Shown piece by piece: positions 9,572-36,761 of a stretch of DNA of 37,202 nucleotides. The translations under genes were made by a program, and so were the position numbers. The DNA is from a virus: positions 1 to 37,202 of the IMG/VR virus record IMGVR_UViG_3300009428_000024. One strand, 5' to 3'. Positions within the stretch are counted from its first letter, which is position 1. Each line of letters starts with the position of its first letter. The notes under the pieces are model-generated. The model was not told where the DNA came from. It saw only the letters and a list, made by a program, of their open reading frames with translations, and ran no database searches.

Positions 9572-9822
9572 TAGAACGAACCTCCATCAATGTCTGGATT
9601 TTTCAACACATAGTTATTTGACGAAGCCTCGTATACTAACGTACCTCCGTCGACTAAATTGAGATCATTAACATCATTCAATGATGCTATTGTTTCTTTA
9701 CCCGTGGCTGATGTAGATAATGTAATAGCGTTAGCGCCAAATCGATTACCTGCTATTTGTCCTGTTTGGCCTACATTAACTTTGATTGATGTTTGCGAAT
9801 CATTGAATAGTGTGTTAGCCAT
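9571..9822 (-). CDS. Small structural protein with DGGSF tail
   Basis: An 83-residue protein. It has the fibre-like sequence IASLNDVNDLNLVDGGTLVY and ends in NPDIDGGSF, the short C-terminal tag also present at the ends of the 247- and 422-residue proteins. Small proteins with this LNDV...DGGTLVY layout accompany fibre genes in marine T4-like phages. The start and stop both overlap neighbours by one base (TAATG), so it is in one coupled unit with the 109- and 987-residue genes. Likely a virion component; exact role unknown. Confidence 0.7.
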   Translation of the reverse strand: MANTLFNDSQTSIKVNVGQTGQIAGNRFGANAITLSTSATGKETIASLNDVNDLNLVDGGTLVYEASSNNYVLKNPDIDGGSF

Positions 9823-10151
9823 TATCTTGTTACCTCTGGCGTTACAGTGACCATCCCTTCAAGTATTCTACTCTTAACACTAGATGAGTCTGTTAGCTCA
9901 ACATCATATACATACCTGCCAGCACTCAACGCAGATGTTACTGCATTGTTCATAGATAAAGTAAGAGCACCAGTATTGTTGGCTAATAGGGTTCCAAAGG
10001 CAACAGCAGTACTTGATGTGTAAGATTTACGCATCTGTGCAGCCGCACTCATTCCTGTGAGATCCAATTGACTACCTGCTGTGTTTGTTAATGAGACTGT
10101 GGTAGCGAAATCAGTACCTTGATCTATTACGATGTTGACTTTTGTTCCCAT
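9822..10151 (-). CDS. Ig-like structural protein (109 residues)
   Basis: A 109-residue protein with an all-beta pattern: FATTVSLTNTAGSQLDLTGM, AAAQMRKSYTS, GALTLSMNNAVTSALSAGRY, VYDVELTDSS, then ILEGMVTVTPEVTR. This layout (LDLTGY...AQMRKS...GRYVYDVE...EGxVTVTPxVTR) is familiar from structural genes of marine T4-like phages and resembles the Ig-like N-terminal domain of baseplate adaptor proteins such as BppU. GGAG lies six bases before the ATG. It is the first gene of fibre block B, immediately downstream of the late promoter word at 10178-10185. Probably a connector or fibre-attachment protein; that role is inferred. Confidence 0.75.
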   Translation of the reverse strand: MGTKVNIVIDQGTDFATTVSLTNTAGSQLDLTGMSAAAQMRKSYTSSTAVAFGTLLANNTGALTLSMNNAVTSALSAGRYVYDVELTDSSSVKSRILEGMVTVTPEVTR

Positions 10152-10209: not shown

Positions 10210-10554
10210 ATGAGATTAAGAACAGATTTTAAATACGCATTGATTGATGAATACTATACTTATTGGGATGCATTTGATAATCTTCCAGAGTTTTACAGCA
10301 CATTACATGCTGTAGATGAGACAGTATTTAAGTATACTATATCAAAAACAGAGAAGTGTACGGCAACAACTGGGTGCGTTCAACGAAAACTGTATTCACA
10401 AAATGAGATGTGGATTGTATATTACCACAATGATAGAAAGGTATTAGAAGTTATTGATAATGCTAGCAGCTCTGAGATGGTAGAGCCACTAGCAGATAAG
10501 AGGTTTGGTGTCAGATCTACTATTGTTGAGACTGATCAGTTTCAGCTGACGTAA
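10210..10554 (+). CDS. Hypothetical protein, only plus-strand gene
   Basis: A 114-residue protein starting MRLRTDFKYALIDEYYTYWD. I do not recognise the family. It is charged and aromatic, with two cysteines close together (KCTATTGCVQRK, ~residues 48-59), and has no signal peptide or membrane segment. The frame is open further upstream, but the ATG at 10210 is favoured because GAGG lies eight bases before it and the late promoter word TATAAATA ends 38 bases before it; a longer start would lie upstream of the transcript. Its codon use and composition resemble a real globular protein, not the fibre genes. Its last 35 bases overlap the 3' end of the oppositely oriented oxygenase gene. Confidence 0.7.
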   Translation: MRLRTDFKYALIDEYYTYWDAFDNLPEFYSTLHAVDETVFKYTISKTEKCTATTGCVQRKLYSQNEMWIVYYHNDRKVLEVIDNASSSEMVEPLADKRFGVRSTIVETDQFQLT

Positions 10555-11254
10555 TCTCATCAACAATATCTTCCCATATAGTTGGATCCCCAACTACGAA
10601 GCCCAATGTAATCCTAGGTCCACCATAAGCAGAGTGCCACATAATTTTATCATGTTCTTGCTTCTCACCATAGTATCCTAATTTACAATGCCAGTCGTTT
10701 GGTTTGTCTTGTATATGAACTAACTTATCATCAGCTGGTCTAAGGCTTCCAGGTTTTTCTTGACTAGCATCCATATGTCTCCAATAGCCTGTTCCATCTG
10801 ACCATGTGAATAGACAATTGAACCCTGGTACATTCCAATTAGTATGCCATGCAATATATCCTTCTGGAGGATAAAACATTTTTAATGCGCAGAATTTAAA
10901 ACCAATATAGTTACCAATGACATCATCTATCCATTCGCTCTTTGCTTTATACTTCTCAATCCATTCAAATTCTTCTTTGGTAAACTTGTGTCCTTCGTGT
11001 TTGATTACTTGATTCATACTCTGGACATTTAAATCATATCCCCACGAGTCTGGTGGAAATCCATCATGGGTTTCTGCAGCGGATGAATTCAAACATTCAA
11101 GTGAAGTCGAATATTCGGGTCGTCCTTCTTTTAAGAACTTTCCTTTCTTTGCCCAATTAGGTAAATTCTTATCGGGTCTGTTTTCTAATATGAACTCTTT
11201 ATATTCATTTAAAGGTTTCAAAATTTCCGTAGGTAGCGTTAAGACTTGCCTCAT
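10520..11254 (-). CDS. Probable Fe(II)/2-oxoglutarate-dependent oxygenase
   Basis: About 244 residues with the layout of a double-stranded beta-helix oxygenase: FYPPEGYIAWHTNWNVPG (first His of the metal site), LFTWSDGTGYW, and a second His with downstream Arg in WHSAYGGPRITLGFVV. Counted from the chosen start, these are His137, Asn139, His207 and Arg214. The usual HxD/E is HxN here, so metal binding may differ. Prolyl/aspartyl hydroxylase-like proteins of this kind are common in marine T4-like phages. The frame begins at 11275, but that ATG has no ribosome binding site; the ATG at 11254 follows AGGGAG at ten bases, so I chose it. It overlaps the glycosyltransferase gene by 50 bases and is probably co-transcribed with it. 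A substrate in the fibres is possible but unproven. Confidence 0.65.
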   Translation of the reverse strand: MRQVLTLPTEILKPLNEYKEFILENRPDKNLPNWAKKGKFLKEGRPEYSTSLECLNSSAAETHDGFPPDSWGYDLNVQSMNQVIKHEGHKFTKEEFEWIEKYKAKSEWIDDVIGNYIGFKFCALKMFYPPEGYIAWHTNWNVPGFNCLFTWSDGTGYWRHMDASQEKPGSLRPADDKLVHIQDKPNDWHCKLGYYGEKQEHDKIMWHSAYGGPRITLGFVVGDPTIWEDIVDEITSAETDQSQQ

Positions 11255-12071
11255 GTATTGTTGTCTCCCTAACATACGCTGGTGGTATGGTATAGTGCAA
11301 CACAGCTTTACTGTGTCCTGATTTAATTTCCGTTTCCTTATATCCTGTTACAAAATTATATTTTGCATCATTAGGTAAACGCTTAATATTAACACCTAAA
11401 GAATCATTCTGCTCATGGATCACTCTCCAAAAAGCAAACGTATCCCAGTAGGCTAAACTTCTAGGGTATGGATGAATCCCATCAAAGTTTTCACTTTCGT
11501 TATGAAGTCTATAATATCTAATCCACTCACTCCATAACTTATCGGTTTTATCGTTCTTTCTATAGACTAGCATACCGCAATGCCATCTAAACTTATGTGC
11601 CTTTCCATCTCTGAACAATTGAATATGTTCTTCATTATAATGTTCCAGCTCTCTTGGTTCCCCATTATTTTGATCTGCGTCTTGGAAGTATACGACCTTA
11701 GAATTGTATGGTCTATTCTCCGTCATCATCAAATCTACATCTGGCCCTGCTGCCTCCATATGATCAAACACTTCATCTAGTTCCTCAGAAATGACCATAC
11801 TGTCAGCATCAAGATAGGCAGTTATATCAAATGGTGTTTTGTCTAATGCCCATAGCTTTGTTCTATTATGAACTGGTACAGGTGCAAAGACATGATCAAA
11901 CAATTCTCTATCCGCATCGGTGATCCATTCCTCATGAGCAAACACTGCTACTTGAGCATGTGGTAGCTCATCCTTTAATGATTCGACACAAGCCCTCAGC
12001 GCTTCATAGTATGCATATGAGAGAGTAGCTACTAGTAGATAACCTTTAGTTTCACTCACTTCTTTCTGCAT
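11205..12071 (-). CDS. GT-A type glycosyltransferase (GT8-like)
   Basis: A 288-residue predicted glycosyltransferase. The first ~35 residues (YLLVATLSYAYYEALRACVE) fit the nucleotide-binding start of a GT-A fold. RTKLWALDKTPFDITAYLDADSM (residues 70-92) contains the DxD metal/nucleotide-sugar motif as Asp88-Ala-Asp90, in a context like GT8 enzymes such as glycogenin. FRWHCGMLVYRK (~161-172) and YWDTFAFWRVI are likely parts of the acceptor side. The gene overlaps the 180-residue gene by 20 bases and the oxygenase gene by 50, so the three form one unit. AAGG directly abuts the ATG, which is a poor spacing, so coupling to the upstream gene is likely. Acceptor unknown: fibre protein or host surface glycan are both possible. 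Confidence 0.75.
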   Translation of the reverse strand: MQKEVSETKGYLLVATLSYAYYEALRACVESLKDELPHAQVAVFAHEEWITDADRELFDHVFAPVPVHNRTKLWALDKTPFDITAYLDADSMVISEELDEVFDHMEAAGPDVDLMMTENRPYNSKVVYFQDADQNNGEPRELEHYNEEHIQLFRDGKAHKFRWHCGMLVYRKNDKTDKLWSEWIRYYRLHNESENFDGIHPYPRSLAYWDTFAFWRVIHEQNDSLGVNIKRLPNDAKYNFVTGYKETEIKSGHSKAVLHYTIPPAYVRETTIHEASLNATYGNFETFK

Positions 12072-12594
12072 CCTTAATGATACATGCTATTCCAAAAGCC
12101 TGGGCTTCAATTGGGTTAGTAGCCTTACGTATCTTTCTACGCCAGGCTTTATTTTCATCTGCCTTAACTACATCCATATTTAAAAACTGTTGCTTTAGTT
12201 CCCACAGATCACTACGTTGCTTCTGTTGCTTTTCGTTCAATGCAGATTCTTTACTGGCCTCCATTAAACTTTCCTGCAGCTTCTGCTCTCTTCTAGTATT
12301 GTGCATGATCTCATCTTCATCAAATTGTTTCTTAATATCACTGTACAATGGATGCTTTGGATCTTTTGGAATACCCATTTCCTTAACAACATTTCCTGTA
12401 CCTGGTCCATTTGGTCCATGGTGCATTAACACGCAAGCAAGCTCAGTATGTTTGTTGTTTGTATAGTGGGGATACACTATAGTCGGTAGGTCAGGGTTCA
12501 TCTGGAACTGAGGTATACGCAGTCCTGATTCCTTTTCTTTCTCTTTGGTTGGTGTTTCGATGGAAGCTCCATCAGGTATTTTAACATCAGTCAT
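12052..12594 (-). CDS. Hypothetical charged protein heading the enzyme cassette
   Basis: A 180-residue protein I do not recognise. The N-terminal third is Pro-rich (RIPQFQMNPDLPTIVYPHYT) and includes VLMHHGPNGPGTGN. Residues ~88-140 are a charged, probably helical or coiled-coil stretch (RREQKLQESLMEASKESALN, QQKQRSDLWELKQQF). The C-terminus has AWRRKIRKATNPIEAQAFGI. No catalytic motif is visible. It is the first gene after the sigma70-like promoter at 12620-12648; AGGA lies about 12 bases before the ATG. Position suggests it works with the glycosyltransferase and oxygenase, perhaps as an adaptor, but this is only context. Confidence 0.65.
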   Translation of the reverse strand: MTDVKIPDGASIETPTKEKEKESGLRIPQFQMNPDLPTIVYPHYTNNKHTELACVLMHHGPNGPGTGNVVKEMGIPKDPKHPLYSDIKKQFDEDEIMHNTRREQKLQESLMEASKESALNEKQQKQRSDLWELKQQFLNMDVVKADENKAWRRKIRKATNPIEAQAFGIACIIKDAERSE

Positions 12595-12651: not shown

Positions 12652-15600
12652 CTAGCTTATTCTAACCCACAACTTAATTGTTGTGACAGTTTCCGATGAT
12701 GCTTGAACTGTAAGTCCAGACCATGCATGCGTGTAACTGCCGGTGTACTGGGAAACATATTCACCTACATACGTACCTACGAATCCTTTTACATACTGCT
12801 TACTAAAGGTTCCTATAAAGGTTCCCAAGTATGCTCTATCGAAAGATCCAGAGTACGTTCCCTCGTACTGTCTTGTAAAGTATCCAGTAAATTGTTGCGT
12901 GGTTGTACCACTATATGCCTTGGAGTATTGGCCTATCCACGCATGTGTATATGTTGTGTTAAATGTTCCTTCATATGCTTTTGAGTACTGAGCCTCATAA
13001 GCCTTATTATATATGCCAGTGTATACAGTGCTGAAATATCCTTCAAAGACACCTTCATACTGACCTGTATAGGATGCAGTATATTGTCCTACGTATTCAC
13101 CAACATATGCCTTTGTGTAGTATCCTATGTAGCCGCCTTCATATTGTCTTGTAAAGTATCCAGTATAAGATCCCTCATATGTTTTTGACCACTGATGGGT
13201 ATACTGTCCTAAGTAAACACCTACAAATGTCTGTCCATAAGATCCATGGAATACACCTTCATATTGTTTAGTGTATTGTCCAAGATATGTTCCTGTGTAC
13301 AATCCAACATACAGTTTAGAGTATTGTCCTTCATAGATTCCTTCATAGTGTCCAACATAGTTATGAGCACCTTCATACTGTGTGCTGTAGTATCCTATAT
13401 ACACACCTTCATATTGTTTAGTCCAGTTACGAGCAAAGTATCCTGTATACTGTCCTGTGTATGTTCCTGAGTATGTTCGTGTACCTTCATATATTTTGTT
13501 ATAGTTGGTACTCCAATTAGCACTTAGGTATGTTGTATTAAAGTACCCTGTCCAGTCTCCTTGGTACTGTCCAGTATAATCTCTTGTTCCTTCATACTGA
13601 GCAGCGTATGCTTTAGTAAATGATAATACGTAAGCACTCTCATAGTATGAGGCATATAGACCAGTCCATTGTCTACTTCCACCAAACTGTCCTTCCCATG
13701 CACGATCATAGTATCCAACATACGTTGCGTTGAATGCACCTGTCCATTGTCTTGTGCCAGTATATTGTGCTGCAAATTGTCCAGTCCAATATCTGTTATA
13801 GTAACCAGTATACTGACCTGCCCATATGTGTTCATAATATCCAACATATGTTTTTGTATAACTTGTAGTCCAATTTTTTAGATAGTTGCCAGCATAGGCT
13901 TTTACATAGTTGCCTGAGTATGCTTTTGTATAGTTCGATCCATATGTTCCAGTATATGATCCAGAATAATATCCAGTGTACCCACCAGAATAATATCCAG
14001 TGTATGTTGTTGAGTACTGTGCTGTAAACTGAGTTGAGTAGGTGCCTGTATAGTATCCAACATAAGTTCCTGCATACTGGGTTGTTCTTGTTACACGAGC
14101 ATAGTTGCCTGCGTATGATGTACTGAAGTATCCTGTGTATTGTCCAGTATATTGTCCTGTATAATTACCAGAATATGTTTTAGTATAATTGCCAGAATAG
14201 GTTGTACTAAAGTACCCAGTATACTGCCCAGTATATTGTCCTGTATAATTACCAGCATACTGTGTCGTTCTAGTTACTCTTGCATAGTTTCCAGCATACG
14301 TTGTACTAAAGTATCCAGTATATTGTCCGGTATATGTTCCTGTGTATTGCCCAGTGTATTGAGTCGATCTAGTTACTCTTGCATAGTTACCAGTAAATTG
14401 TGTATCATAGTATCCAGTGTATGTTCCGGTGTATTGTCCAGCATACTGGGTTGTTCTTGTTACACGAGTATAGTTACCAGTAAATTGTGTATCATAGTAT
14501 CCAGTGTATGTTCCTGTGTATTGTCCAGCATACTGTGTCGTTCTGGTTACACGAGCATAGTTGCCAGTGTATGTGGTAGCAAAGTATCCTGTGAATGTGT
14601 TGTCATATGATCCACCATATTGGCTATTGTAGTACCCAGTATAGCTAGAACTAAAGTACCCTGTATATTGTCCGGTATATGTTGTAGAGTATGATCCAGC
14701 ATATTGTGTGGATCTAGTAACACGTGAGTATGCACCAGCCCACTGTCCGGAACTATAATAAGCAGTATAGAAAGACGGGCTCGATGGATTAGTTCCCGTC
14801 CATGCTTGGCCACCATTCAATGGATTATTACCTGCTATAAAGAAAGCTGGGAACCCACCAGGACCTGTATATTGACCTGTCCATATTTTTGAATAATTAG
14901 TACCTGGAAAATATATTGGTCCATACTTTCCTGGTGTTGAACTACCAGGGCCTTGATATGTAGCACCATAAGCGCCGGAGTATTGTACTTGTGGAGCAGG
15001 GCCCAACCAAACCGTAGCCCAGGCTGCGCCAGCATAGTACCCAGTATAGCTAGAACTAAAGTACCCTGTGTATTGTCCTGATCTAGTTACTCTTGAATAG
15101 TTGCCAGTGTATTGTGTGGATCTAGTTACCCTTGTATAATACCCAGTATATGCTTTGGTATATTGACCAGAGAATGAGCCTACGTAATTTGTCTGTCTAG
15201 TTACTCTTGAATAGTTTCCAGCATAGGATGTACTGAAGTATCCTGTGTATTGACCTGTATACTGTCCTGCGTAGTTACCAGAATATGTTTTAGTATAATT
15301 GCCAGAATAGGTTGTACTAAAGTACCCAGTGTATTGACCTGTATACTGTCCTGCGTAGTTACCAGAATATGTTTTAGTATAATTGCCAGAATAGGTCGTA
15401 CTAAAGTATCCAGTATATTGACCACTATATTGTCCTGCGTAGTTACCAGCGTACTGTGTTGTTCTTGTTACACGAGCATAGTTGCCAGTGTATGTGGTAC
15501 TGAAGTATCCAGTATATTGCCCAGTGTATGTTCCAGAGTATTGTCCAGCATACTGGGTTGTTCTTGTTACACGAGCATAGTTACCAGTATATTGTCTATC

Positions 15601-17817
15601 AAAGTACCCAGTGTATGTTCCAGAGTACTGTCCAGCGTATTGGGTTGATCTAGTTACTCTTGAATAGTTGCCAGTGTATGTTGTACTAAAGTATCCAGTA
15701 TATTGTCCGGTATAGTACCCAGTGTAGGCGCCTGAGAAGTATCCTGTAAACTGAGCTGTCCTTGTAACTCTTGTCCACTGGCTGGCGTAGTTGCCAGTAT
15801 AGTACCCAATATATGCCCCTTCCCAGTATCCAGTATATTGTTTTAGATAGTTCTTATTGTAGTACCCAGTATATGCTTGGTTATAATACCCAGTGTATGT
15901 TGCTGTGTATATTTTATCCCAATTGTAATCATAGTACCCTGTATATTGTTTTGTGTAATTGCCGGCATAAGTTCCTGCAAATGCTCCTTGTAAAAAGTAT
16001 CCAGTATAGAATGTTGTCGTACTAGCATACTGGCCTTCATAAGATCGCTGGCCTTCCCATGCGTGTGTATAATATCCTACATATGCTTTTGTAAAGTAAT
16101 TAGAATATTGGTTTCCATAGGCTCTTACACCCTCATATAATTTTTGATATGATTTTTGATAATTAACACCAAGATATACTTTTTCCCAATACCCAGTGTA
16201 TTGTCCTGTGTAGGTTCTTGTTCCAGTATAGAGTTTAGAATAAACACCAGTGTATGTTTTGGTCCAGCTACCTATGTATGCCTTTGACCAATATCCAACA
16301 TATTGTCCTGTGTATGTTCTATCACCAGCATACGCACCTTCATATGATCCCTCATATAATTTTACATAGTGCTTAGAATATAAACCTGCCCAGTTACCTT
16401 CATACAGTTTTGTGAACTGCTTTACACCTTCGTAATATCCTGTGTAGGTACCGGTAAAATATCCTGTGTATTGGGTCTCAAAAGAACCCTCCCATTGTCT
16501 ATCAAAAGATCCTTCATATTGCTTTGAATAGCTACCAACATAAGCACCAGTAAACCCGCCAACAAAGTATCCGCTAAACGCACCTTCGTATGTCCCCTCG
16601 TATTGTTTTAAATAAAGTTTGCTATATACGCCTTCGTATTCTTTGGTATAGTTTCCTAACCATACATGACTGTACGATGTGGAATAGTATCCGGTAAATG
16701 CTCCCTCGTATTGTTTATCAAAAGAGCCTTCATACTGTCCAGTATATTGTCCTACATAGGCTCTTGTGTATCCGCCAGCATATCCTGCAACCCATTGCTT
16801 AGTATATTGTTTTGTATAAACGCCAGTATAAGTCTTAGTATAGTTTCCTGTAAAGCTACCCTCATATGCCTTGCTAAAGTATCCTGTAAATGCACCTTCG
16901 TATTGTGCTTCATATTCTTTTGTGTAGGATCCGACATATTGTCCGACGTATGCTTTTGTAAATGTATGCTCAATTGGTCCTTCATAATTACCAGTATATG
17001 ATTGCCCATATTGGCCTTCCCATATATGTGTATATGTTGCACCATATTGTCCTGAATAATTACCAATATATTGTTGAGCAGAAATGCTGTTTCTTGTATC
17101 AGTTATATTATCACTAACTTGTTGCCATACCTGTCCACCACCAGATGGATCTGATGCAGATAGTTTGTATGATCCAACCCCACTATCAGTTACTTCATTT
17201 CTGAATCTAGCAACTAGTAATTGTATCTCTACATCTGACATCTCTTTGATAGATGTGCCACTTAATCTTACTGGACGTACCACCGTTGGTGCTGATACAC
17301 CCTGTGTTTTTCTCCATAGCTTGTATGTTGTTTCAACACTGTTGTCAGTGTTCTTTACAAAGTATCCTGTGTCAGTATATAATGATGCGTTAGGATTTGT
17401 TTGTGACATCCAATATGATCCAAGACCATTTGATACTAAATTAGATAATGCCGCTGTTATGATTGATGATGTTAGATCATTACTATGCTCTGATGCATAT
17501 GATGTAGCATTTACAAACAACGGATATACTATTGACGACTCACTAGCTGTTGTTGTGTTTTGGTATAATGTATATGTGGTAGTGTTTAATGCATTTGTGG
17601 ATGGATGTGTACCCACTGACTCGGATCGAGTCGTATCTAAGAATGCTCCTCTACTTGTACCACCAACATTGATGTTGATAGTTCCTGCATGTAAAGTATT
17701 AATAACAAAAGCATCTAAAACTTTATGGACGGCATAATCCATTTCCGAAGATTGCATCTGTTGCAGTCCTAAGAAACCTCCGCCTCCGGTTGCTTTTATT
17801 TTTAGTGGATTAGCCAT
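12652..17817 (-). CDS. Giant aromatic-tetrad (Tyr-x-Gly-x) repeat protein
   Basis: A 1721-residue predicted virion fibre or sheath-like protein. Residues 1-245 are a non-repeat head starting ANPLKIKATGGGGFLG, with related segments (GLGSYWMS...FVKNTDN; GVGSYKLS...DNITDTRN), a head type I recall from marine T4-like phages. From ~250 to ~1700 the chain is almost wholly four-residue units, aromatic-x-Gly/Lys/Arg-x (such as YTGQ, YTGY, YEGS, YSKA). The outer thirds contain charged YEG and YSK/YTK units; the central part is low-charge and contains 13 RVTR-x-x-Q/N inserts. An island at ~910-1000 (WLGPAP, GPGSSTPGKYGPIYFPG) breaks the array. AGGA is four bases before the ATG. Beta structure with Tyr over Gly is inferred; function unknown. 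Confidence 0.85.
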   Translation of the reverse strand: MANPLKIKATGGGGFLGLQQMQSSEMDYAVHKVLDAFVINTLHAGTININVGGTSRGAFLDTTRSESVGTHPSTNALNTTTYTLYQNTTTASESSIVYPLFVNATSYASEHSNDLTSSIITAALSNLVSNGLGSYWMSQTNPNASLYTDTGYFVKNTDNSVETTYKLWRKTQGVSAPTVVRPVRLSGTSIKEMSDVEIQLLVARFRNEVTDSGVGSYKLSASDPSGGGQVWQQVSDNITDTRNSISAQQYIGNYSGQYGATYTHIWEGQYGQSYTGNYEGPIEHTFTKAYVGQYVGSYTKEYEAQYEGAFTGYFSKAYEGSFTGNYTKTYTGVYTKQYTKQWVAGYAGGYTRAYVGQYTGQYEGSFDKQYEGAFTGYYSTSYSHVWLGNYTKEYEGVYSKLYLKQYEGTYEGAFSGYFVGGFTGAYVGSYSKQYEGSFDRQWEGSFETQYTGYFTGTYTGYYEGVKQFTKLYEGNWAGLYSKHYVKLYEGSYEGAYAGDRTYTGQYVGYWSKAYIGSWTKTYTGVYSKLYTGTRTYTGQYTGYWEKVYLGVNYQKSYQKLYEGVRAYGNQYSNYFTKAYVGYYTHAWEGQRSYEGQYASTTTFYTGYFLQGAFAGTYAGNYTKQYTGYYDYNWDKIYTATYTGYYNQAYTGYYNKNYLKQYTGYWEGAYIGYYTGNYASQWTRVTRTAQFTGYFSGAYTGYYTGQYTGYFSTTYTGNYSRVTRSTQYAGQYSGTYTGYFDRQYTGNYARVTRTTQYAGQYSGTYTGQYTGYFSTTYTGNYARVTRTTQYAGNYAGQYSGQYTGYFSTTYSGNYTKTYSGNYAGQYTGQYTGYFSTTYSGNYTKTYSGNYAGQYTGQYTGYFSTSYAGNYSRVTRQTNYVGSFSGQYTKAYTGYYTRVTRSTQYTGNYSRVTRSGQYTGYFSSSYTGYYAGAAWATVWLGPAPQVQYSGAYGATYQGPGSSTPGKYGPIYFPGTNYSKIWTGQYTGPGGFPAFFIAGNNPLNGGQAWTGTNPSSPSFYTAYYSSGQWAGAYSRVTRSTQYAGSYSTTYTGQYTGYFSSSYTGYYNSQYGGSYDNTFTGYFATTYTGNYARVTRTTQYAGQYTGTYTGYYDTQFTGNYTRVTRTTQYAGQYTGTYTGYYDTQFTGNYARVTRSTQYTGQYTGTYTGQYTGYFSTTYAGNYARVTRTTQYAGNYTGQYTGQYTGYFSTTYSGNYTKTYSGNYTGQYTGQYTGYFSTSYAGNYARVTRTTQYAGTYVGYYTGTYSTQFTAQYSTTYTGYYSGGYTGYYSGSYTGTYGSNYTKAYSGNYVKAYAGNYLKNWTTSYTKTYVGYYEHIWAGQYTGYYNRYWTGQFAAQYTGTRQWTGAFNATYVGYYDRAWEGQFGGSRQWTGLYASYYESAYVLSFTKAYAAQYEGTRDYTGQYQGDWTGYFNTTYLSANWSTNYNKIYEGTRTYSGTYTGQYTGYFARNWTKQYEGVYIGYYSTQYEGAHNYVGHYEGIYEGQYSKLYVGLYTGTYLGQYTKQYEGVFHGSYGQTFVGVYLGQYTHQWSKTYEGSYTGYFTRQYEGGYIGYYTKAYVGEYVGQYTASYTGQYEGVFEGYFSTVYTGIYNKAYEAQYSKAYEGTFNTTYTHAWIGQYSKAYSGTTTQQFTGYFTRQYEGTYSGSFDRAYLGTFIGTFSKQYVKGFVGTYVGEYVSQYTGSYTHAWSGLTVQASSETVTTIKLWVRIS
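14384..14557 (-). repeat. Direct repeat, 2 x 87 bp, 82/87 identical
   Basis: Two adjacent 87-base units (14384-14470, 14471-14557) differing at five bases by eye. Each encodes 29 residues: the tetrads YAGQ YTGT YTGY YDTQ FTGN plus one RVTR element. Together with the 84-bp repeat at 15247 this shows that the array grows by in-frame higher-order units. Confidence 0.8.
15247..15414 (-). repeat. Direct repeat, 2 x 84 bp, 82/84 identical
   Basis: Units 15247-15330 and 15331-15414 differ at two bases by eye. Each encodes 28 residues (seven tetrads, including FSTT, YSGN, YTKT, YAGQ). Bases 15275-15330 are also identical to 14165-14220, exactly 1110 bases away and in the same frame. Confidence 0.85.
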
Positions 17818-17823
17818 TAAGTC

Positions 17824-20808
17824 CTATGCCTGTAGTTTATACTTTGAGTCGCCCCATACATTACCAGTATTTATGAAGGTTGTTCTCGTCGCATTATAAC
17901 CAATTATGGCTGCTCCAGGTACTCCTCCATTTCCACTGTTAGCGTATTGGGTCTTCAAAGCACCATCGTTAGCTTCATTCAACGATGCATCATCGTGATT
18001 AAAGCCTCCTGCTGCGGCACCTCTTTGACCTAATAGTCCTCCTGTTCCTCCATGGATACCATATGCAACTGCACTATTGGATCCATTAATAAGGGAATTG
18101 TTTTCTAATATGTTAGTAATTGATCCACTAACTATTGCATAACCAGCACCATAACCACCTGTGCCACCAACTCTCTGTAGAGTTGATCCTGTTACAGGAT
18201 AACCACCTGATCCACCGCCACCACCGCCACCGGCGATAGTACCATAATTTTCTATGAACAATTCAACTGCTGGTGATGTTCTAATTGCAGGGCCTCCGGA
18301 AGTTGCATCACTCCCTGTTCTTGTTGCAGTATTTGTATCCCCAGGGTGTCCGGCTGATCCAATAATTCTTGCATCTGGATGTACTAATATTCTTACCCTA
18401 TGTTTGATAGAGTTGGATGCCAAATTGATAGCACCAAGACCAGTTGACACATCCATTGCCGCAGTAGTATTAGTTGAGTGTACATCACACCCATCTACTA
18501 TAATATTAACAAGCTGAGGTCTTTGTGATACAGCTTTGCCTTGTCCCACTAAGTAATCTCGTAAGTTGAATCTTTGTGTAGTACTTGAAATGGTTACATC
18601 AGTTCTTTCATATCCAATATGAGATAGAACCCAATTGGCTCCTTCTTTAATATAAATGGCTTTGCTTTCTTTCCATCCACCAGCTTTCTTAACGTGAACT
18701 GATTCTGTCTGTTTCCAAGCACCACTTTGTTTGATACGAGCAACACCGCCCTCAGTAAGCTCTCCGGTTTTCAATCCAATGAAGTTTGTTGTACCTGAAT
18801 ATATCTGATCGTATGATGGATTGCCTATCCATGATGAGGTGTAGTTTCCAGATACGCCAACGTATGTTGTTGGAGTATTGCCCAGCCATGCTCCCCCATA
18901 CAGTTTAGTGTATTGGCCAACGTATGATTTAGTGTATTGTCCTAACCAGGTATGTGTATATATTTTACCATATGAATTACCATACTGGCCCACATATGTC
19001 TTTTCCCATATATGTGAATAACTTACTTCACGAGTTCTAGCAAACACACCCTCATACTGTCCCGTATAAGCTCCCTCATATGTGCCTTCGTAATAACCTA
19101 TGTATGCCTTCTCATAGTATCCTGTATATGATCCTGCCCATGCATGAGTATATTGTGTAGAGTATACACCCTCATAAGTATTTGCAAAGAGACCTGTACC
19201 ATCTGTTTTGGCGCCGTACGTTGCTAGTCCTTCATACTGACCAGTGTATACACCTTGCCAATAGTTTCCATAGTATCCAGTATAGTATCCTGTGTACTGT
19301 CCAGCATATGTTCTACTACCACCATATTGCCCTTCATATAGTTTTGTGTAGTATCCTGCATATAACCCAGTATATGTTACTGATGTGACGTGTGTATAGT
19401 TAGGACCGTCAAAATATTTTTCAACTGATTGACTATATGCACCTTGCCAATATCCCACATAGTAAGCCTGGCCTGCATATGAACCTTCCCAGTTACCTGT
19501 CCAAACTCTACTATAAGTTTTATCAAATGAATGATTTCTTTGGCCTGTCCATTGTGCAGCACCTGTCCATTGGCGCGCAACACTTTGTAGATATGAAGCA
19601 CCATAGCTTTGACTAGTCGAGCTTTCCCACCCACTCACCCAAACTCGATAATTGTAAAATTGTAAATTAGGATAGGATCCACCGATACTTCCAGCTACGA
19701 AATTTCCCGCAACTCCATATGATCCAGTTGGTCCTGACTGTGAAACATAACTGCTAGAAAAGTATGCTAAACTTGTCCACGTGCTTGCAAAATTACCTTC
19801 TGCAGGCGCAGGACCTAGCCATGTCTTTGACCAATATCCTGTAATAGGTTCGCCATCATATGTATAGTATACACCAATGTAGGTGGAACTGTAGGATACT
19901 TCGCCACTTTGGACCCATTGTCTTACACCTGACCATTGACTGCCACCCTCACCACCACCTGAATGGAAGTACCCTGTACCTTCCCATACTAGACCACCAG
20001 AGTAATATCCAGTGTATGAACTGTTTACATTGAAGTAACCTGTGTACTGAGCAGTACCACCAAACGTACCAGTGTATTGTCCTGTGTATGTTTTAATGTA
20101 GTTAGAATTTGTAGTGGTCGTACTCGAATGAAGATAATTCATAGGCGCTTGGCCATATGAAACAAATATTCCATTCCAGTTAGCTATGGTATAAAATCCA
20201 CTGTATGTACTTTGGTATACACCTGTGTAGGTTCCTACAAAAGAACCTTCCCATTGATGGGACCATGCATGTGAATATTGACCAGTGTATTGGCCAGAGT
20301 AGGTTCTATCGCCTGCCCATAGCTTAGAATATATACCTGTCCAAGGACCATTCTGATAGTTACCAGTGTAGGTACCTTCCCAAGCTCTAGTATAAGGACC
20401 ACCTAACCAAAGATGAGTATACTGTCCAGTGTATTGTCCTTCGTATTGTCTATCATAGTATCCTGTGTATACTCCTTCCCAAGCATGAGTATATGAGCCT
20501 TCCCAGGCATGAGTATACTGACCAACATAAACACCTTCATACAATCCAGTATATGTACCTGCATATGCTTTAGTGTACACTGCTACATAGGCTTTAGAAT
20601 ATAATCCTTCATACAGAACTGACCAGACCTTTCCATAGTATCCTATGTAGCCGCCTTCATATTGTCGTGAGTATATGCCTTCGTACTGTTGCTCATAGCC
20701 ACCAGTGAAGAATGCTTTTAATGTACGTGAAGTGTTGCCAAGGTACGTGCTATCAAATGCACGTGTAGTGCTACTCGTATACGAATGTGAATAATTTATT
20801 CCCGCCAC
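17824..20808 (-). CDS. Aromatic-tetrad fibre with glycine-rich adhesin tip
   Basis: A 994-residue predicted tail fibre. The start is GTG with GGGAG five bases upstream. Residues ~37-677 are Tyr-x-Gly/Lys-x tetrads (YEGI YSRQ YEGG, YTHA WEGS) like the 1721-residue neighbour, with interruptions including a WLGPAP island. Residues ~690-735 hold three IK/VK/IK...G-x-W units (IKQSGAWKQ, VKKAGGWKE, IKEGANWVL), a module frequent in phage fibres before the tip. The C-terminal ~250 residues (RVRILVHPDARIIG, FIENYGTIAGGGGGGGSGG, GGTGGYGAGYAI, GGTGGLLGQRGAAAGG, FINTGNVWGDSKYKLQA) form a glycine-rich tip comparable to polyglycine-type phage adhesins such as gp38 of T-even phages. Receptor binding by the tip and a spacer role for the tetrads are inferred. 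Six bases separate it from the next gene. Confidence 0.85.
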   Translation of the reverse strand: MAGINYSHSYTSSTTRAFDSTYLGNTSRTLKAFFTGGYEQQYEGIYSRQYEGGYIGYYGKVWSVLYEGLYSKAYVAVYTKAYAGTYTGLYEGVYVGQYTHAWEGSYTHAWEGVYTGYYDRQYEGQYTGQYTHLWLGGPYTRAWEGTYTGNYQNGPWTGIYSKLWAGDRTYSGQYTGQYSHAWSHQWEGSFVGTYTGVYQSTYSGFYTIANWNGIFVSYGQAPMNYLHSSTTTTNSNYIKTYTGQYTGTFGGTAQYTGYFNVNSSYTGYYSGGLVWEGTGYFHSGGGEGGSQWSGVRQWVQSGEVSYSSTYIGVYYTYDGEPITGYWSKTWLGPAPAEGNFASTWTSLAYFSSSYVSQSGPTGSYGVAGNFVAGSIGGSYPNLQFYNYRVWVSGWESSTSQSYGASYLQSVARQWTGAAQWTGQRNHSFDKTYSRVWTGNWEGSYAGQAYYVGYWQGAYSQSVEKYFDGPNYTHVTSVTYTGLYAGYYTKLYEGQYGGSRTYAGQYTGYYTGYYGNYWQGVYTGQYEGLATYGAKTDGTGLFANTYEGVYSTQYTHAWAGSYTGYYEKAYIGYYEGTYEGAYTGQYEGVFARTREVSYSHIWEKTYVGQYGNSYGKIYTHTWLGQYTKSYVGQYTKLYGGAWLGNTPTTYVGVSGNYTSSWIGNPSYDQIYSGTTNFIGLKTGELTEGGVARIKQSGAWKQTESVHVKKAGGWKESKAIYIKEGANWVLSHIGYERTDVTISSTTQRFNLRDYLVGQGKAVSQRPQLVNIIVDGCDVHSTNTTAAMDVSTGLGAINLASNSIKHRVRILVHPDARIIGSAGHPGDTNTATRTGSDATSGGPAIRTSPAVELFIENYGTIAGGGGGGGSGGYPVTGSTLQRVGGTGGYGAGYAIVSGSITNILENNSLINGSNSAVAYGIHGGTGGLLGQRGAAAGGFNHDDASLNEANDGALKTQYANSGNGGVPGAAIIGYNATRTTFINTGNVWGDSKYKLQA
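17868..17875 (-). promoter_or_regulatory. Possible late promoter (CATAAATA)
   Basis: Minus-strand CATAAATA, about 50 bases before the 1721-residue gene, inside the last codons of the 994-residue gene. It fits the relaxed NATAAATA motif but not the perfect T4 word. Confidence 0.35.
18777..20697 (-). repeat. Second in-frame aromatic tetrad array
   Basis: About 640 residues of aromatic-x-Gly/Lys/His-x units in the 994-residue protein. Trp is more frequent than in the larger array (WEGS, WLGG, WAGD) and the RVTR element is absent, but G-x-R-x-Tyr/Trp punctuation is present (AGDRTYSG, GGSRTYAG). The DNA copies are more diverged than in the centre of the larger array. Boundaries are approximate. 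Confidence 0.8.
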
Positions 20809-24442: not shown

Positions 24443-27400
24443 TTACAATGATACCGCTAGTGCTCGGTAGTCCCTTACATATGGTGATGTATTTAAACTA
24501 TCAGATAGCATTACTATCTTAATAGCTAGTTGTTTATATCCTACAAACTTCTCTCCATCAGCATTATAGTATGTTGCTTGATGTGCAACAGGTGCTTTTG
24601 GATCTCTAAACACTTGGTTTTTATGAGATGCATCTACTTTGAAATGCTGAGCACCATCTATCTTCGTAAATGGTATTTGGTCTGCTACTGTCAATGAAGT
24701 TGCACTTGCTCTTGCTGTTACAGTAGTAATAATATAATCTGTATCTCTATCTACATTGACAATCTTAATAAGGTCGCCATTTGCATATTGGTTCTGGAAG
24801 TCAGAATTAGTACCAGTTATTGTGGCACTACCTGATGATGTAGCTACAGTACCAGTTTGTAATGTAACACTTGGTGTGTCTGCAAACTCATAACTATACT
24901 CTACTACGTCCTGTCTGTCAACAGCTGATGACTTTTTAGATTTGTTTTTAACTGCCTGAAGTTCAGACCAGCTAGTATCTACAAAAGCAGTTCCATCAGC
25001 TTGGTTTAATACTTTAGCATATAGCTTAATATCAGTACCCTGTGGCTTCCATGCATTAACAAATACTTTAATATCTTCTGCATCGAGTCCTTCTGCTAGC
25101 GTTACTGTTCTTGAAATATACTTAGCAGCAGCTGATCCAGCTGAACCCTTATACTCATTGAGATCAGTATTGTTAATAATGTTTTCATACACTACTAATG
25201 ATTGTGATTGTAAATCAATAGATGGTGATAATGATATTCTATCTGTACTTAATGTTTGTAGTACGGTAAGAGACTTAGCACCTGAGTTAGATGTAATCTC
25301 ATTAGACTTACTCATTACTTTAATTTTCTGTGATGGGTAGTTTCTATCGTTGTACTTAAATCTTTCACTGTCAGAGTTACCAGACGCTGCTGATAGCTTA
25401 CTTGTTATTCTAGGAACAACTGTTGTACCTGACGGTGTGTTTCTATATAGCTGCGGTTCAAAATAACTTAGGCTAGTATCAACAACGGCTCCAACCTCTG
25501 TGTTGGCTCCTGATCTAGTACCAATTAATTGATCGCCATCTGCAAATAAGAATGTACTATTTGTTGCAGTACTATCATTAACTATTATAGTAGTTGTGTT
25601 AGCATCTAGTGAACCAAATGTAGCAGTTGGTGTATGAATATACCCACCACCTGATTTAGTAATTGATGATGCACCTTCTAGTATAATTTGTGTAGTGTTG
25701 CTAATTGACTTGACTGTGACCACATCATATGCACTGCTGTCTCCAGCTAATACTATTTTATTACCAGCTGCTAGTAATGAGAAGTTTGTTCCTGTACCTG
25801 TTACAGTAGAGCTTCCTGCAGTGAAACTAACAGTTCCTGTTGCATTAGCAGCTAATTTAAATACTTCTTCTCCACCCTCAAATGTTCCATTGATTGTAAA
25901 GTTCTCAGCAGTAAACCATTCGTGATCATCGTTTGTTAATTTTACTTGGCCACTCTTACTTTCAAACACTGCAACAAATATATCGAACTTCATATCCTCA
26001 TCGAGGAATTCTGTCCATGTTCTGTTGTTGGTAGATAGGAACATTGTTCCTTGACCCCAGTCTTGATTGATCTGCTTACTTGAATTGTTCAGTTCATTCT
26101 GTCCTGCTTTAGCAGTGTACACAGAATAGTTTGGTGAGTTTCCATCAGGAAGAATTACAATAGCATATTCTTTATTGGCTTCAACAAATACTGGCGATGG
26201 GAACACAACGTTTGTTGCGCCACTACCATTTGTAGATGTTGTTATTTCTGAAGCTAGCATATGTGTTCTACTGAATGGCAGTACACCTGAACTAGGTGAT
26301 CCGTCACTCACGTTTCTTATTTCTACCGTAACACCCTGTGATGGATCTTTAGATGAGAAATATAAATTCATAGATGAAAGATATGCGCCCTCTGAGTCAG
26401 AAGGAAGTGATGCAGAATCTACCATAAATGTTTGAGCTAATGGATCCGGTCCTAGCTCACCTATGTTACACATAGGCTGTCTAAACCATCCGCCGCCATT
26501 GCCGCCTTCGCCTCCAATGCCCAAACCACCCCACCAGCCTCTTTCAAAAGATAAATCCCAACACTCACTGACCACTGGTCGAGCTGGAATAGTAACGGTA
26601 GCATTGGATGAAGGAATAATTACTGGCACTGTGTTAGCCGGTATAGTAATTACATTGGCTGTTACGACAGGAGGATTAGTATCGTCCCTACCTTCATCTG
26701 GATTGTCGACTACGTTATTAGCCTCAACAGTAACAATTACTGGAGGTGGTATAGTAGTGACTACTTCAGTGGTTGTAGACTCTGATGAATTTACAATTCT
26801 TTCAGAAGTGGATGAAGAAGGTACTGTTGATCTTGTCGATGTTGTTATTGATCCTGAATCGACTGAGAAGTTATAACAATTGAAATTGCTAGTTGCTCTT
26901 GACACTAGTTCACCTATCTGTGATAGGTTAGATATATCTGCTACTACAAACTTTCTTTCACCAGCAAAGAATGTTGCTGCTGGTATTGATAGTCTGCCCA
27001 TTAAGGTACCATTGCTATCTGATTTTAGTTCAGATCCGAAAGTTCCAGTAATGTGGAACACTGAATTTCTATTAGCAGCTGATACTTGGTTTTGTGGTAC
27101 TGTTAGTAACAGAGGTCGTACGTGCTCAGTAACAGCTACTTCATCAAAGTATACGTAATGTCTCAATCCTGGTCTTAGACCATTAGCAATAAAGTCCACT
27201 GTTATAGGTGGAATGTATGGCTGGAATGAAATGTCCGTAACAAAATCACCAACGTGTTTTGTAGTAGTTGAAGTTGATGAGCTGAATGATGCAGTAGATC
27301 TTTCTATCTGCTGATTTATTACAGTCTCCATCGTATCTGTTCTTGTAGTGTCAGTTGATGTGGATCCTGATAGAGATGTTGTTATATCTTCTGATACAAC

Positions 27401-30400
27401 TCTCTCTGATGTTAATTGGTTAGGAGCAATCTTATTGAGCTCTCCAATCAAACTAAGTGTCGGTGATGCAACATCGATGTCTATCTGTACTGCTGACTCT
27501 GGTGCGTTCTGATGATCTACATCACTAACATAGTTAGGATATAAGTTTAGAACACCATTATACTCCCAGAACATAGAAGTACATTTTCTTGTTTGTGTAG
27601 CATTTGGTTGCTTAATTAATTCTTTCTGCTGGTATCTAAGCGTAACCATATCACCTGATTTAGTAACTTTACTACCACCTTCATACTTCAGTTGAAGTGA
27701 ATATGTTTCAAATTTAGAAGTAAGGAGATTACGTGATTGATCGTACCCTGCTTTAAACTCATCGTTTAAAGGATTACCAGTTGTAATCGATGAGAAGTTA
27801 TCTACAAGGAAACCATTTTTAAATCTGTTCTGTGTTGGATCCGTTCTGCCAGGTAACGTCTGGTCGCTTGACATTTTCTCAAGCATGTTAAGAGATGTAT
27901 AGTATTCAAGGTTCTGTACACGCTCGTCAATTACTTTGATATCCTTCATGGTATATCGTTTCTGTTGAGTCGCTTTTATTTTAACACCTAAGTCAGGACG
28001 TCCATAGTACCTTGCTGTCTTAGCATCTAATGATGGGAACACTGGTACGTCGATTGTAGCCAGCTGCATTGAATCATCTGGTTTCTCAGGTAGTGTTGGG
28101 TTAACTGATGGTACACCTTGTACTATAGTAAATCCATTTTTCTCTACTACCAATCTATCCTTACGTGGTAAGTAATAATCTACAGTAGCTGACCATAGCT
28201 CGTTTGGTGATGCTACGTCATTGTTATTGTCCATTGTCTCAACAGATGATGGGTTAACTGTAGCTGCACCAAGCGTTGCTGCTTCTACAGCAGTATTAGC
28301 CATGTTAGGTCTAAAGTCAATTGCATCTCGTAATGAGAATTCTTTACCATCTGATGGAGATACGAATACTGGTATCTCTTGTGTTGTAATCTTATCTGCT
28401 GGAGTAACTGCTGACGCGTCATCTACCTTATCATGATATGATTGGTAGGAATAGAATCCAGTACCAGCTGATATGTCTTTAACAAAATGCTTAACTTTAA
28501 CAACTATAAAGTCATTAGTGTCAATTGAGAGTCTTGCTGAAGATTTTAATTTTAATCTTGATAGTCCATAATGACCATCTTTTTGTCCGTTGTCTAATTC
28601 AAATGATGAAGTGTAATCATCTGATGCTGTCTCTGCATATGCACTTTCATTCCAGTACACGTTAGTTAGACTTAGTGCATCAGGTATACCTAAACTCCAT
28701 GGTCCTGTTGCACCACCAGCATTGCTAGATGTGTCAATTTTAACATATGATGTTTTGAGTGTTTTCTTTAAACCAGCTTCTGCTGAGTCTTGTACGTTTG
28801 AAACAATAGTAGCTGCCAGTCCGCCAGATGCTAATGCCACGCCAAGGTTTACAGTAAGTGTTTGATCGCTTGATGAGATAGCTGCGTTTGATGCTGCTCT
28901 ATCTGATAAAGCAACTACTGACCCTTTAGGGAATGTACGTAGAACAGTTGCGGCCGCATTGGCTGCTAATGCTTTATTAACAATTAAGCTAGTATCAGAA
29001 AGTATGCTGTTAATTTGTCTTACATGGCCACCAACTTTAATGTGATCACCAGCTACAAGTGTTGCTGTAGTACAGCTAGTTACCGTAGTGTTACTACCAC
29101 TAACAACAGCATTTTGACTTACGTTAGCGGATGCTGCTGCATCGACGCTAGCTCTTGATATTACTAGAATTGTTTTCTCTTGTGTTTCATTTAAGAAGCC
29201 GTCAGATGTACCGAAGCCATATGTTTCGGATCCAGATACAGACATAGAGGCTGATCCATTTGCTGCTGCAAACGTAACCGCTGTAGATTTCTTCTTAACA
29301 AAAGATGCATTACCTACAGTCTTAACACCGCGCTGACCTACTGGGAATACAAGTTTGTTGAAATCTGCGTCTTTAATTTGTGCTGTGCTGTCTGATTCTA
29401 ATACTATATCAGCTGCACCTCTTTCAGTAGCGTTTGAATTACCAGGCGTATAAGATGTTGATGCATAGTGATATAATCCTTTTGCATGTTTCTTAAATGC
29501 TTTACCACTAAACATTTTAATGTCATATATGTATGCTTGATATTCTGTTGATGGAGCACCAATATTGTCGTCGTCTAACTCAAGGCCTCTTACTCTTGCT
29601 GTACCAATAACATTAACAGTACTTGCCATAGCAACCGTGTTAGATGATTGTGCTGGTACGTCAACGTTGTTGTTTGATAGCGCATGTAGAGGTCCATCAA
29701 GAATTAGAATTTGGTCATTAGTGTCTGCACCAAACTGTCCTTTCAATTCTTTTACTTGTACAAAATGTCCAAAGTTTACAGATACTGCTTGTGCAGCTGC
29801 ATTCGTTGATGATATAGCTTTAGGAAGTTTTACTCTTGTAGTACCAATTGTTTCGAACCTATGTCCTTTAACATAACCTTTACCAGTACCAACAACTATA
29901 CTCAACTGAGTGTTTCCACTATTGCCTGCAATACCTTCTGTACTTACTACAAATGGATCTACGACATAGTCGCCACTTTCTTCAAATGTTCTATTAGCTA
30001 ATTCGTCAGCCATGCTTGATAGTACTGGCTTTTGATTCTGAGAAATTCTTTGTCCGTTTTGGAATTTAACTAATGATAAGAAGTTGTTAGATGTGTCTGC
30101 AACTGTAGTTGTGTTGACAGTAAGCACTGGACTTAATTTTAATCTATCAGCACCCGGTGCATTTTCATTATTATATCCTGATGCATTATCGAGTAATGTT
30201 GTATCAATCGAACTATTAACTACAGCTTCAGTCGTAACTATGCCTACAGATAATTCATGTGGTCTATTTGTGTATGAAGATACTATAATGTCTTGCTCTT
30301 CAAATCTTTGGAATGCACCTTTCTGATATACGATACCATCAGATACCTTCATTTGATATGAGGATCCAACTACGTTAAATTCATTGTTGCCTGCTTTCTG

Positions 30401-36300: not shown

Positions 36301-36761
36301 TTTTGTTCTAAACTAATTAAGTTGGTCAAGCTATCTGCTCTAACCTCGATGTACTGAGGTCGAATATACTCTGCATTAGATAAACGTAATACATCATCAG
36401 ATGGATATGCTATCGATGCATTGTCATCGAATAAAATTCTAAAAAGTAATTCTATAGATCGAGGTGATCCTTTTGATTTGTAAAAGTCAAGTATATTTTT
36501 TAAGGTAAGTTGTGTGTCTGCTTTGAAAGATCCAGGAAAGCCATCTAGGAATGTCTTCTTAAAGAATTCTAAAAATTGTTCTGTAGTGTTATCAATGTCG
36601 TGATATTCTAATAGGTTTCTAGCAACCTTAGATGTAGGCTGTGTTTCAAGCCACTCATAGTATGCTTGTATGAAAGCCATAAACACCGGACCTTCATCAT
36701 GATAGAACTCAGGAAGCTGGTCCTTGACGAAAATTGATATCTTGTCTTCAACAGTATGCAT
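33333..36761 (-). CDS. 7: Baseplate wedge protein, gp7-like
   Basis: A 1142-residue protein between gp6- and gp8-like genes. The N-terminal ~190 residues (FMAFIQAYYEWLETQP, TEQFLEFFKKTFL, LDFYKSKGSPRSIELLFRIL, then ADSLTNLISLEQKEIVGATSGA) match what I recall of the C-terminal third of T4 gp7 (EAYIQYLS, YDFYSTKGIEASYKFLFKVLYNEE, SDSLTEDLVGQTIYTATG). The C-terminus (YIHDNDYYQSHSYVVESGLS and YREVLLKVAHVAGTKLFG) parallels the SRSYYVMKIKS...VHPVGFGF segment. The ~800 residues between are beta-rich repeats (VVGSLSSVDITLGGKGFSIG, GYSNGQIITFDLGGRG, YSSDPFTSVYTKG) without an obvious T4 equivalent. In T4, gp7 ties gp6, gp8 and gp10 into the wedge. It starts by TAATG overlap with gp6. The DNA also holds a weak GATAAATA at 33487. 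Confidence 0.8.
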   Translation of the reverse strand: MHTVEDKISIFVKDQLPEFYHDEGPVFMAFIQAYYEWLETQPTSKVARNLLEYHDIDNTTEQFLEFFKKTFLDGFPGSFKADTQLTLKNILDFYKSKGSPRSIELLFRILFDDNASIAYPSDDVLRLSNAEYIRPQYIEVRADSLTNLISLEQKEIVGATSGAKAFVESIATRLINNIKVHVMYLSNVRGLFVRTEVVAPSDTGLQDDMPVVVGSLSSVDITLGGKGFSIGDTFDIQASSGKQGKIRVNSIADATGLIDFNLANGGFGFSTNSSFTETIVNDQNLLVSNVINTAQTYSNTTHPTAFDWHEKKIDKAAFFRFETVDQTVEQVSFLSGANLNANVEHYIANTSKTSNPWVNGKDSGGNVIANGYIIATTINGANGTYDIAPVLGTFGDQRKLTIAKAVATHNFQEKEEVFEESSVELSFTTPKAGTFSVSDVVRGHESLANGIVTAVNSTVITVNGSFGTWSANDNVQKVADTAVTANVTTINVTTSGANAVITDIANSTTMTIADITGIFNQNKKIHGVQSHAIATLQADGVASGVSDIFFEGAAGTQGVVDTVANNSVTARVLGSNTSQVGFANTKYSNGLATAFSANLAAPIIGRDSNTHANVTVVSTGAGAAFDISTLENTEDVTIYTDFVGDKNTANVLFLDCVIDGGNSGIGFLDTVTVNTAGTGYSNGQIITFDLGGRGGGRPTTSATANVTTNGSGAVLSAQVITAGAGFMSNSVANLSNMSGGSSLAVTGNFDYGYGFPKDPNGDYTTIIDNVLTRFTGTIGTIAGLGNINPGNNYSSDPFTSVYTKGIAKYDRKDLVVNIINKNGVFTTGENVNQTVALAGQQITLSSNTGPFTIGESLRQVHSSGNPSIVATGEIYAASATTLSIQNPRLKSEFSNGTFTVNATNTSPFVSNSTVNAVSGVLSAQTGVASVVSVVSQTQTAKGQVYAQTDDSVSLRRLSFSVGFNDAPGSFIFGASSGANGTITSVIIDDNTRPIGDNASLITKTQAANGIVTSVDMIDSGFGYQHNASLTLKSSNTESNIVVSGTANVTTTGIGEGYWADQESFLNTKYIHDNDYYQSHSYVVESGLSLDKYREVLLKVAHVAGTKLFGQVNRETIANTQVGLSNSSVTAGTTNGGGVFTAS
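33487..33494 (-). promoter_or_regulatory. Weak late promoter candidate (GATAAATA)
   Basis: Minus-strand GATAAATA about 155 bases before the gp8-like gene, inside the gp7-like gene. It fits only the relaxed motif and could be chance. Confidence 0.25.

Follow-up and report, generated by a model that had tools for sequence, protein, structure and literature searches.

A 1,721-residue protein built largely of four-residue aromatic units is encoded in the window, the 37,202-nt stretch of DNA analysed here, a linear 37-kb virus record (IMG/VR IMGVR_UViG_3300009428_000024). The protein is probably, with a confidence of roughly 0.7, a tail or baseplate adhesion fibre of a T4-like phage, folded as one giant hairpin whose antiparallel arms meet at a receptor-binding tip midway, and acted on by a linked gene cassette. 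The repeat, the family, the gene linkage, the mirror symmetry and the mid-tract tip position are read directly from the sequence, and the hairpin fold of a short relative and the OX fold are predicted, whereas virion location, receptor binding, trimeric state and the substrate of the enzymes are inferred. The parts of the protein are as follows.

12652..17817, minus strand: tetrad fibre protein, family ND, a single uninterrupted ORF of 1,721 aa (family profile E 3e-119)
17077..17817, minus strand: N-terminal domain, residues 1-247, three repeated strand-strand-helix-strand-hairpin modules (AF2 model of the short relative L033, alignments A1 and A5, module listing)
15073..17070, minus strand: arm 1 of the proposed tetrad hairpin, residues 250-915 (tetrad and mirror analyses)
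14728..15072, minus strand: putative distal tip, non-tetrad, residues 916-1030 (11 of 12 tract prolines; hairpin centre at about 972)
12721..14727, minus strand: arm 2 of the proposed tetrad hairpin, residues 1031-1699 (mirror analysis)
12655..12720, minus strand: conserved closing strand SGLTVQASSETVTTIKLWVRIS, residues 1700-1721, an LWVRxA-type C-terminus (end of AF2 strand E279-323 in L033)

The tetrad tract spans residues 250-1699 (nt 12721-17070) and follows the pattern [YFW]-x-[G/K]-x. Tetrad position 1 is Tyr in 73% of units, Phe in 19% and Trp in 8%; position 3 is Gly in 60% and Lys in 16%. Residues 246-1698 contain 297 Tyr, 59 Phe, 28 Trp, 221 Gly and 232 Thr, and the tract also has 106 Ser. 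Over the same residues, 294 aromatic pairs are separated by exactly four positions, compared with 101 ± 7.5 (maximum 127) in 2,000 shuffles (z = 26). The giant tetrad protein that an earlier note had placed at 12720-17070 is thus real. The note's description of the spacing as strict and almost unbroken was overstated. The N-terminal domain, the conserved C-terminus, the second tetrad ORF and the linked modification-enzyme genes described below go beyond what the note reported. Across the whole protein, 240 of 404 aromatic spacings are exactly 4, and another 110 are split 1+3 or 3+1 at YY or YF pairs. The remainder comprise about 12 six-residue spacers (YxGTRTY), about 15 nine-residue spacers (YARVTRTTQY) and a few others. 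The longest run without a break is 45 tetrads (residues 286-465), about 35 breaks interrupt the tract, and a block of about 115 residues (approximately 916-1030) has no tetrads at all.

Compared with its relative L002, the tract shows 75% protein identity, a dN of 0.19 and saturated synonymous sites, so it is a selected protein and not a DNA artefact; the values indicate evolution under purifying selection. DNA tandem repeats are missing from most of the gene, with local arrays of 84-99 nt at 14.2-15.7 kb. Between 14001 and 16000, coinciding with these arrays, GC skew is positive across the inner tract and trends negative elsewhere.

The gene lies among baseplate and tail-fibre genes, listed here with the linked cassette.

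31204..37168, minus strand: three baseplate-wedge proteins (phrog_438, phrog_17744, phrog_219)
24443..31195, minus strand: 2,250-aa protein (phrog_358, E 2.1e-279), by its position likely a VrlC-like baseplate protein
17824..20808, minus strand: second tetrad protein, 994 aa, tetrads to about residue 670, C-terminal Gp38-type adhesin (PF05268, phrog_2056)
12052..12594, minus strand: cassette gene B, 180 aa, directly after ND in 132 of 132 whole-cassette loci
11205..12071, minus strand: cassette gene GT, GT-A/GT8-like glycosyltransferase, DxD at D88 and D90 (Pfam and PDB profile matches of relatives)
10520..11275, minus strand: cassette gene OX, prolyl-hydroxylase-fold protein (AF2, Foldseek, VIA-align, conservation)
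9822..10151, minus strand: small protein, L-shaped tail-fibre assembly type (phrog_1084, phrog_3304)

Along the minus strand, the three baseplate-wedge proteins are followed by the phrog_358 protein, a tail-fibre/baseplate protein, a small ORF, the second tetrad protein, the 1,721-aa protein, B, GT, OX, the tail-fibre-assembly type protein and more tail-fibre genes. The tetrad gene of phage C48C1 occupies the same position. This setting, together with the Gp38 adhesin of the neighbouring tetrad protein, counts in favour of an adhesion fibre. In pelagimyophages, a host-recognition cluster is located between VrlC and the neck genes (PMC7029224), and the window locus resembles it by analogy of arrangement. 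The second tetrad protein matches PF05268 at 39.7 bits (cut-off 25) and phrog_2056 at E 7.6e-15. Its largest non-tetrad blocks (270-305 and 355-389) lie on either side of the centre at about 327, and its mirror signal is weak, reached by 11 of 300 controls.

Searches of Pfam, PHROG and NCBIfam with the tetrad protein found no family that covers it. Its PDB sequence matches (E 0.009-0.26) were to low-complexity repeats and were rejected, and literature searches found no earlier work on such tetrad repeats. From IMG/VR loci and phage C48C1, 128 distinct full-length ND members were collected. They are 313-3,347 aa long, with tetrad tracts of about 45 to 3,075 residues. All 128 have the N-terminal domain of about 245 aa, and 112 have the LWVRxA-type C-terminal motif under a strict regular expression, with close variants in most others. 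The first IMG/VR scan returned 7 loci with ND relatives, and a single profile scan returned at least 276 stretches; the family is, by these searches, common in IMG/VR, although none of the family libraries searched contains it.

Among 50,697 phage records, the only named relative is C48C1 (Kyanoviridae according to its record), whose protein WJE88074 is 3,347 aa long and whose gene order matches the window. The YTG-rich tracts that the earlier note attributed to marine T4-like phages were found in none of the named T4-like phages. A match to an S-RIM2 "structural protein" was rejected because its tract, VTGNLTGNVTG, is another repeat behind another N-terminus. Ten related records were checked for the psbA gene; it turned up in none, which gives no indication of a cyanophage that carries psbA. 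Scanning genome contigs with alignment A3 matched two MAG contigs. On a Bdellovibrionales MAG contig (L168:2453-3169), a relative of OX with 41% identity lies next to a B-like ORF, and the 9 kb analysed there contain no tetrad protein. A contig of a Rhodobacteraceae bin (L169:3-2843) carries the end of a tetrad protein followed by B, GT and OX, and by this gene content probably comes from a phage whose DNA was binned together with that of its host.

The fold was modelled on a short member. AF2 was run on the 325-aa ND member L033 as a monomer with an alignment of 63 sequences and gave a model with pLDDT 89.8 and pTM 0.78; the tetrad tract has moderate confidence (pLDDT 73-76). The order strand-strand-helix-strand-hairpin is repeated three times. 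Hairpin strands in modules 1 and 2 are 12 residues each. In module 3, strands 237-272 and 279-323 (36 and 45 residues) pair and contain the tetrads, so the tract is an insertion into this hairpin, and the conserved C-terminus falls in the last strand. In the short member, the tetrad tract is therefore predicted to be the β-hairpin of module 3 drawn out to great length, with the LWVRxA strand closing it. The earlier note had proposed extended β-structure in a rod, sheet or fibre. The long antiparallel strands of the model support an extended rod or fibre, whereas the evidence points to one giant hairpin and not to a sheet of independent tetrads. Foldseek searches of the L033 tetrad model against PDB and BFVD returned nothing below E 1e-3. 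VIA-align matches of the L033 tract (best Z 3.1; T4 gp11 Z 2.1) were mainly long hairpin stems, mostly of pore-forming toxins, and were regarded as noise.

If long members fold as one giant hairpin, a turn or tip is expected mid-tract and the arms are expected in register. In 18 of 30 family clusters, where 3 would be expected, the distance of the longest non-tetrad gap from the centre is no more than 10% of the half-length (P 2.6e-11). With tracts of at least 300 residues, the count is 9 of 19 clusters (P 3.6e-5). The window has its longest gap at tract fraction 0.52 and its second at 0.49, and the main gaps of L014, L016, L017, L018 and L021 are at 0.48-0.53. Prolines break β-strands. In the window, 11 of the 12 found in the tract fall within its central fifth, as do all 12 in L017; in L021, 8 of 9 cluster at the centre.

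Register was assessed against rotation nulls, as the raw mirror statistic peaks centrally partly through trivial overlap. With arm 2 of the window read backwards, 118 of 193 arm-1 aromatics stand opposite aromatics at one register. The rotation null gives 73 ± 11, none of 300 rotations reaches 118, and the parallel reading gives 62. Mirrored aromatics number 204 of 230 in L014, 288 of 313 in L016 and 318 of 355 in L018 (0 of 300 rotations each), three members that share anchors with the window and are not independent of it. Phase switches in the window at 465, 499, 533, 564 and 590 face mirrored switches at 461, 499, 534, 564 and 590 (axis 972.5); four pairs agree within 1 residue (rotation P 0.011). 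The corresponding test gives P 0.0013 in L018 and, in the separate cluster of L099, seven mirrored pairs within 1 residue (P 0.0028). Taking all window switches at a tolerance of 8 residues, the mirror test is weak (P 0.16), and the inner nine-residue spacers mirror as a zone, not residue for residue. The mirror test fails in the proline-rich L006/L036/L074 group and in L097, L008 and C48C1; some exceptions (L007, C48C1) have inserted domains in one arm. Feature order is reversed within one reading strand, which DNA inversion cannot produce, so antiparallel strand pairing is its natural cause.

Two observations on arm length and content were made in passing. The near-identical phages L014 (10001-16366) and L015 (10001-16282) are set apart chiefly by an indel of 28 residues in arm 2, either a real event or a repeat-assembly error. 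In C48C1 (L001:13983-24026) and L007 (9962-16231), one arm holds inserted non-tetrad domains of about 110-160 residues, which by eye look like carbohydrate-binding jelly rolls.

Other folds of the tract were weighed against the giant hairpin. Most long repetitive phage fibres are built from locally folding units, and the tract could likewise form short hairpins or a β-solenoid or β-prism stacked along a single axis that leads from an N-terminus on the phage to a distal C-terminus. Inserts confined to one arm in several relatives, among them L007 and C48C1, would suit such a fibre. We consider it improbable, since local folding predicts neither a mid-tract tip, nor mirrored register and phase switches, nor central prolines, and does not predict the pairing of the C-terminal strand with the N-terminal module in the L033 model. 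A disordered, heavily glycosylated mucin- or silk-like polymer, serving as spacer, glue or condensate, would be in keeping with the low complexity, the Thr and Ser content and the adjoining glycosyltransferase gene. It is set against continuous strands in the modelled tract, purifying selection with saturated synonymous sites, and a register that stays constant, with a phase that is mirrored, across more than 1,000 residues, which a disordered chain would not need; this reading is decidedly improbable. Assembly of the hairpins into a transmembrane β-barrel for DNA delivery, like the stem of a pore-former, is suggested by the toxin stems among the VIA-align matches. These are at noise level and any long hairpin would match them, arms of about 720 residues far exceed a membrane crossing, and the locus is a tail-fibre region, which together make a barrel barely credible. 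The giant hairpin is the reading followed below.

The order ND-(ND)-B-GT-OX is found in 132 of 132 loci with all four genes, and the B, GT and OX frames mostly overlap. ND-selected loci with sufficient downstream DNA have GT and OX in 52 of 54 cases, the exceptions being L008, where a second ND gene leaves the locus, and L020, where a frame change interrupts the tract ORF. OX-selected loci with sufficient upstream DNA have an ND or tetrad protein in 55 of 55 cases. These counts are partly non-independent, as some loci overlap or stem from near-identical phages. The linkage suggests that B, GT and OX form a dedicated maturation cassette for the tetrad fibre. B proteins of the family are about 150 aa and are possibly assembly factors. 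GT has D88 and D90 invariant in 36 sequences. At E<0.01, 5 of 36 relatives match Pfam GT8 (best 3.4e-6) and 9 of 36 match Nucleotid_trans (best 3.5e-7); the window protein itself matched no Pfam family. The first PDB match of the GT profile is glycogenin-1 (E 0.03), around the DxD motif.

The AF2 model of OX has pLDDT 94.1 and pTM 0.91. Foldseek ranks 1-24 are all 2OG oxygenases (ABH2, E 8e-4), and a PDB sequence-profile search with OX returned no match. VIA-align gave PHD2 (Z 10.4), P. putida P4H (Z 10.0) and the PBCV-1 collagen prolyl hydroxylase vCPH (Z 9.6); nearly all matches listed are 2-oxoglutarate oxygenases or halogenases, with prolyl hydroxylases at the top. OX is predicted to have the double-stranded β-helix fold of 2-oxoglutarate/Fe(II) oxygenases. 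Its iron site is H144-x-N146...H214, not HxD/E, and is invariant in 75 sequences, as is R221, a basic residue after the second His at the 2-oxoglutarate-binding position. The HxN triad makes catalysis uncertain: OX could be a variant enzyme, or it could have ceased to be an oxygenase.

That OX and GT modify the fibre we infer from gene linkage and fold. The two could instead merely share the operon and act elsewhere, on the host surface (LPS, for example) or on some other substrate. Pelagimyophage host-recognition clusters encode GT8-family glycosyltransferases proposed to modify the host O-antigen (PMC7029224), and the non-canonical OX triad also favours this reading. A gene set for the host surface need not track one fibre gene, whereas this one follows the tetrad gene directly, in invariant order and mostly overlapping frames, across 132 loci; moreover, protein hydroxylases make up most of the top structural matches of OX. 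We regard action on another substrate as rather unlikely and keep to fibre modification.

In the proposed mechanism, the three modules of the N-terminal ~245 residues presumably anchor the fibre at the baseplate or fibre base, and the hairpin loop of module 3 would be expanded to the tetrad tract of about 1,450 residues. Strand 1, about 670 residues, would run outward from the base to the non-repetitive tip (residues ~916-1030), which would contact the host. Strand 2 would return antiparallel to strand 1 until the LWVRxA strand closes the module. Each strand would place Tyr/Phe/Trp and Gly on one face and polar Thr/Ser/Gln on the other, with the aromatic/Gly faces most likely buried among several hairpins, perhaps in a trimer by analogy with T4 gp37. 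Fully extended, an arm could span up to ~240 nm in the window (722 residues × 0.33 nm) and ~470 nm in L018; twist and packing would shorten both. B, GT and OX would act on the fibre, for example by hydroxylation and glycosylation, for folding, solubility or sugars.

A bolder proposal, which we advance tentatively and hold to be somewhat likelier wrong than right, is that these proteins form a new fibre class. It would be a two-arm Tyr/Gly tetrad β-ribbon with arms that measure up to ~1,400 residues each (hundreds of nm) and extend equally toward a swappable tip, and it would be matured by a dedicated hydroxylase-fold protein and glycosyltransferase acting on the tetrads. Hairpin needles that end in a tip are already known; what is new, as far as the present searches extend, is the family, the tetrad unit, the size and the cassette linked to it. 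To our knowledge, a β-hairpin of comparable length is without precedent. If the reading is true, the hairpin fold is legible from sequence alone, the residue order of one half mirroring the other. Phages would gain a simple route to longer fibres and tip exchange, and designed β-fibres a new building block. The conservation of a glycosyltransferase gene and a hydroxylase-fold gene suggests phage fibres that are modified after translation, a little-known class, and makes the substrates of phage-borne 2-oxoglutarate-oxygenase-like genes and of GT8 enzymes in host-recognition clusters directly testable.

Several known systems share parts of this arrangement. Mimivirus collagens with L230, a lysyl hydroxylase and glycosyltransferase, are viral fibrous proteins with their own modifiers (PMC9546862). 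As with mimivirus collagen/L230 and the PBCV-1 prolyl hydroxylase, the virus here encodes a long repetitive protein together with hydroxylase-fold and glycosyltransferase genes. Unlike in the mimivirus system, these genes are separate, OX has an HxN triad and a putative activity, and the arms are almost proline-free; the longest collagen Gly-X-Y run in the tract is 3 triplets. GT is linked to glycogenin and GT8 through its relatives' Pfam matches and the glycogenin-1 profile match described above. The T-even Gp38 adhesin domain (PF05268) is fused to a tetrad tract as the C-terminus of the neighbouring ORF 17824-20808, while the 1,721-aa protein itself is without it.

GxHxH is the iron-binding motif of the T4 gp37 needle, whose core holds seven His-coordinated irons, and it occurs at no site in the 128 ND members. 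No match indicating gp37 homology was found in PHROG, Pfam or PDB sequences, or by Foldseek below E 1e-3. In the needle (D10/D11), residues 811-881 and 1010-1026 together build the collar and the receptor-binding tip lies between these segments; each chain contributes two antiparallel strands, six per trimer (PMC6957217, PMC9659904). A strand glycine packs against an aromatic of a neighbouring chain (PMC6957217). The tetrad fibre would share the antiparallel hairpin with both ends in the base and a tip midway, here from the L033 model and the mirror and tip tests. The stem strands are about 50 residues in gp37 and ~670-720 here, about 14-fold longer. By this comparison, the T4 gp37 needle appears to be the closest working analogue of the tetrad fibre.
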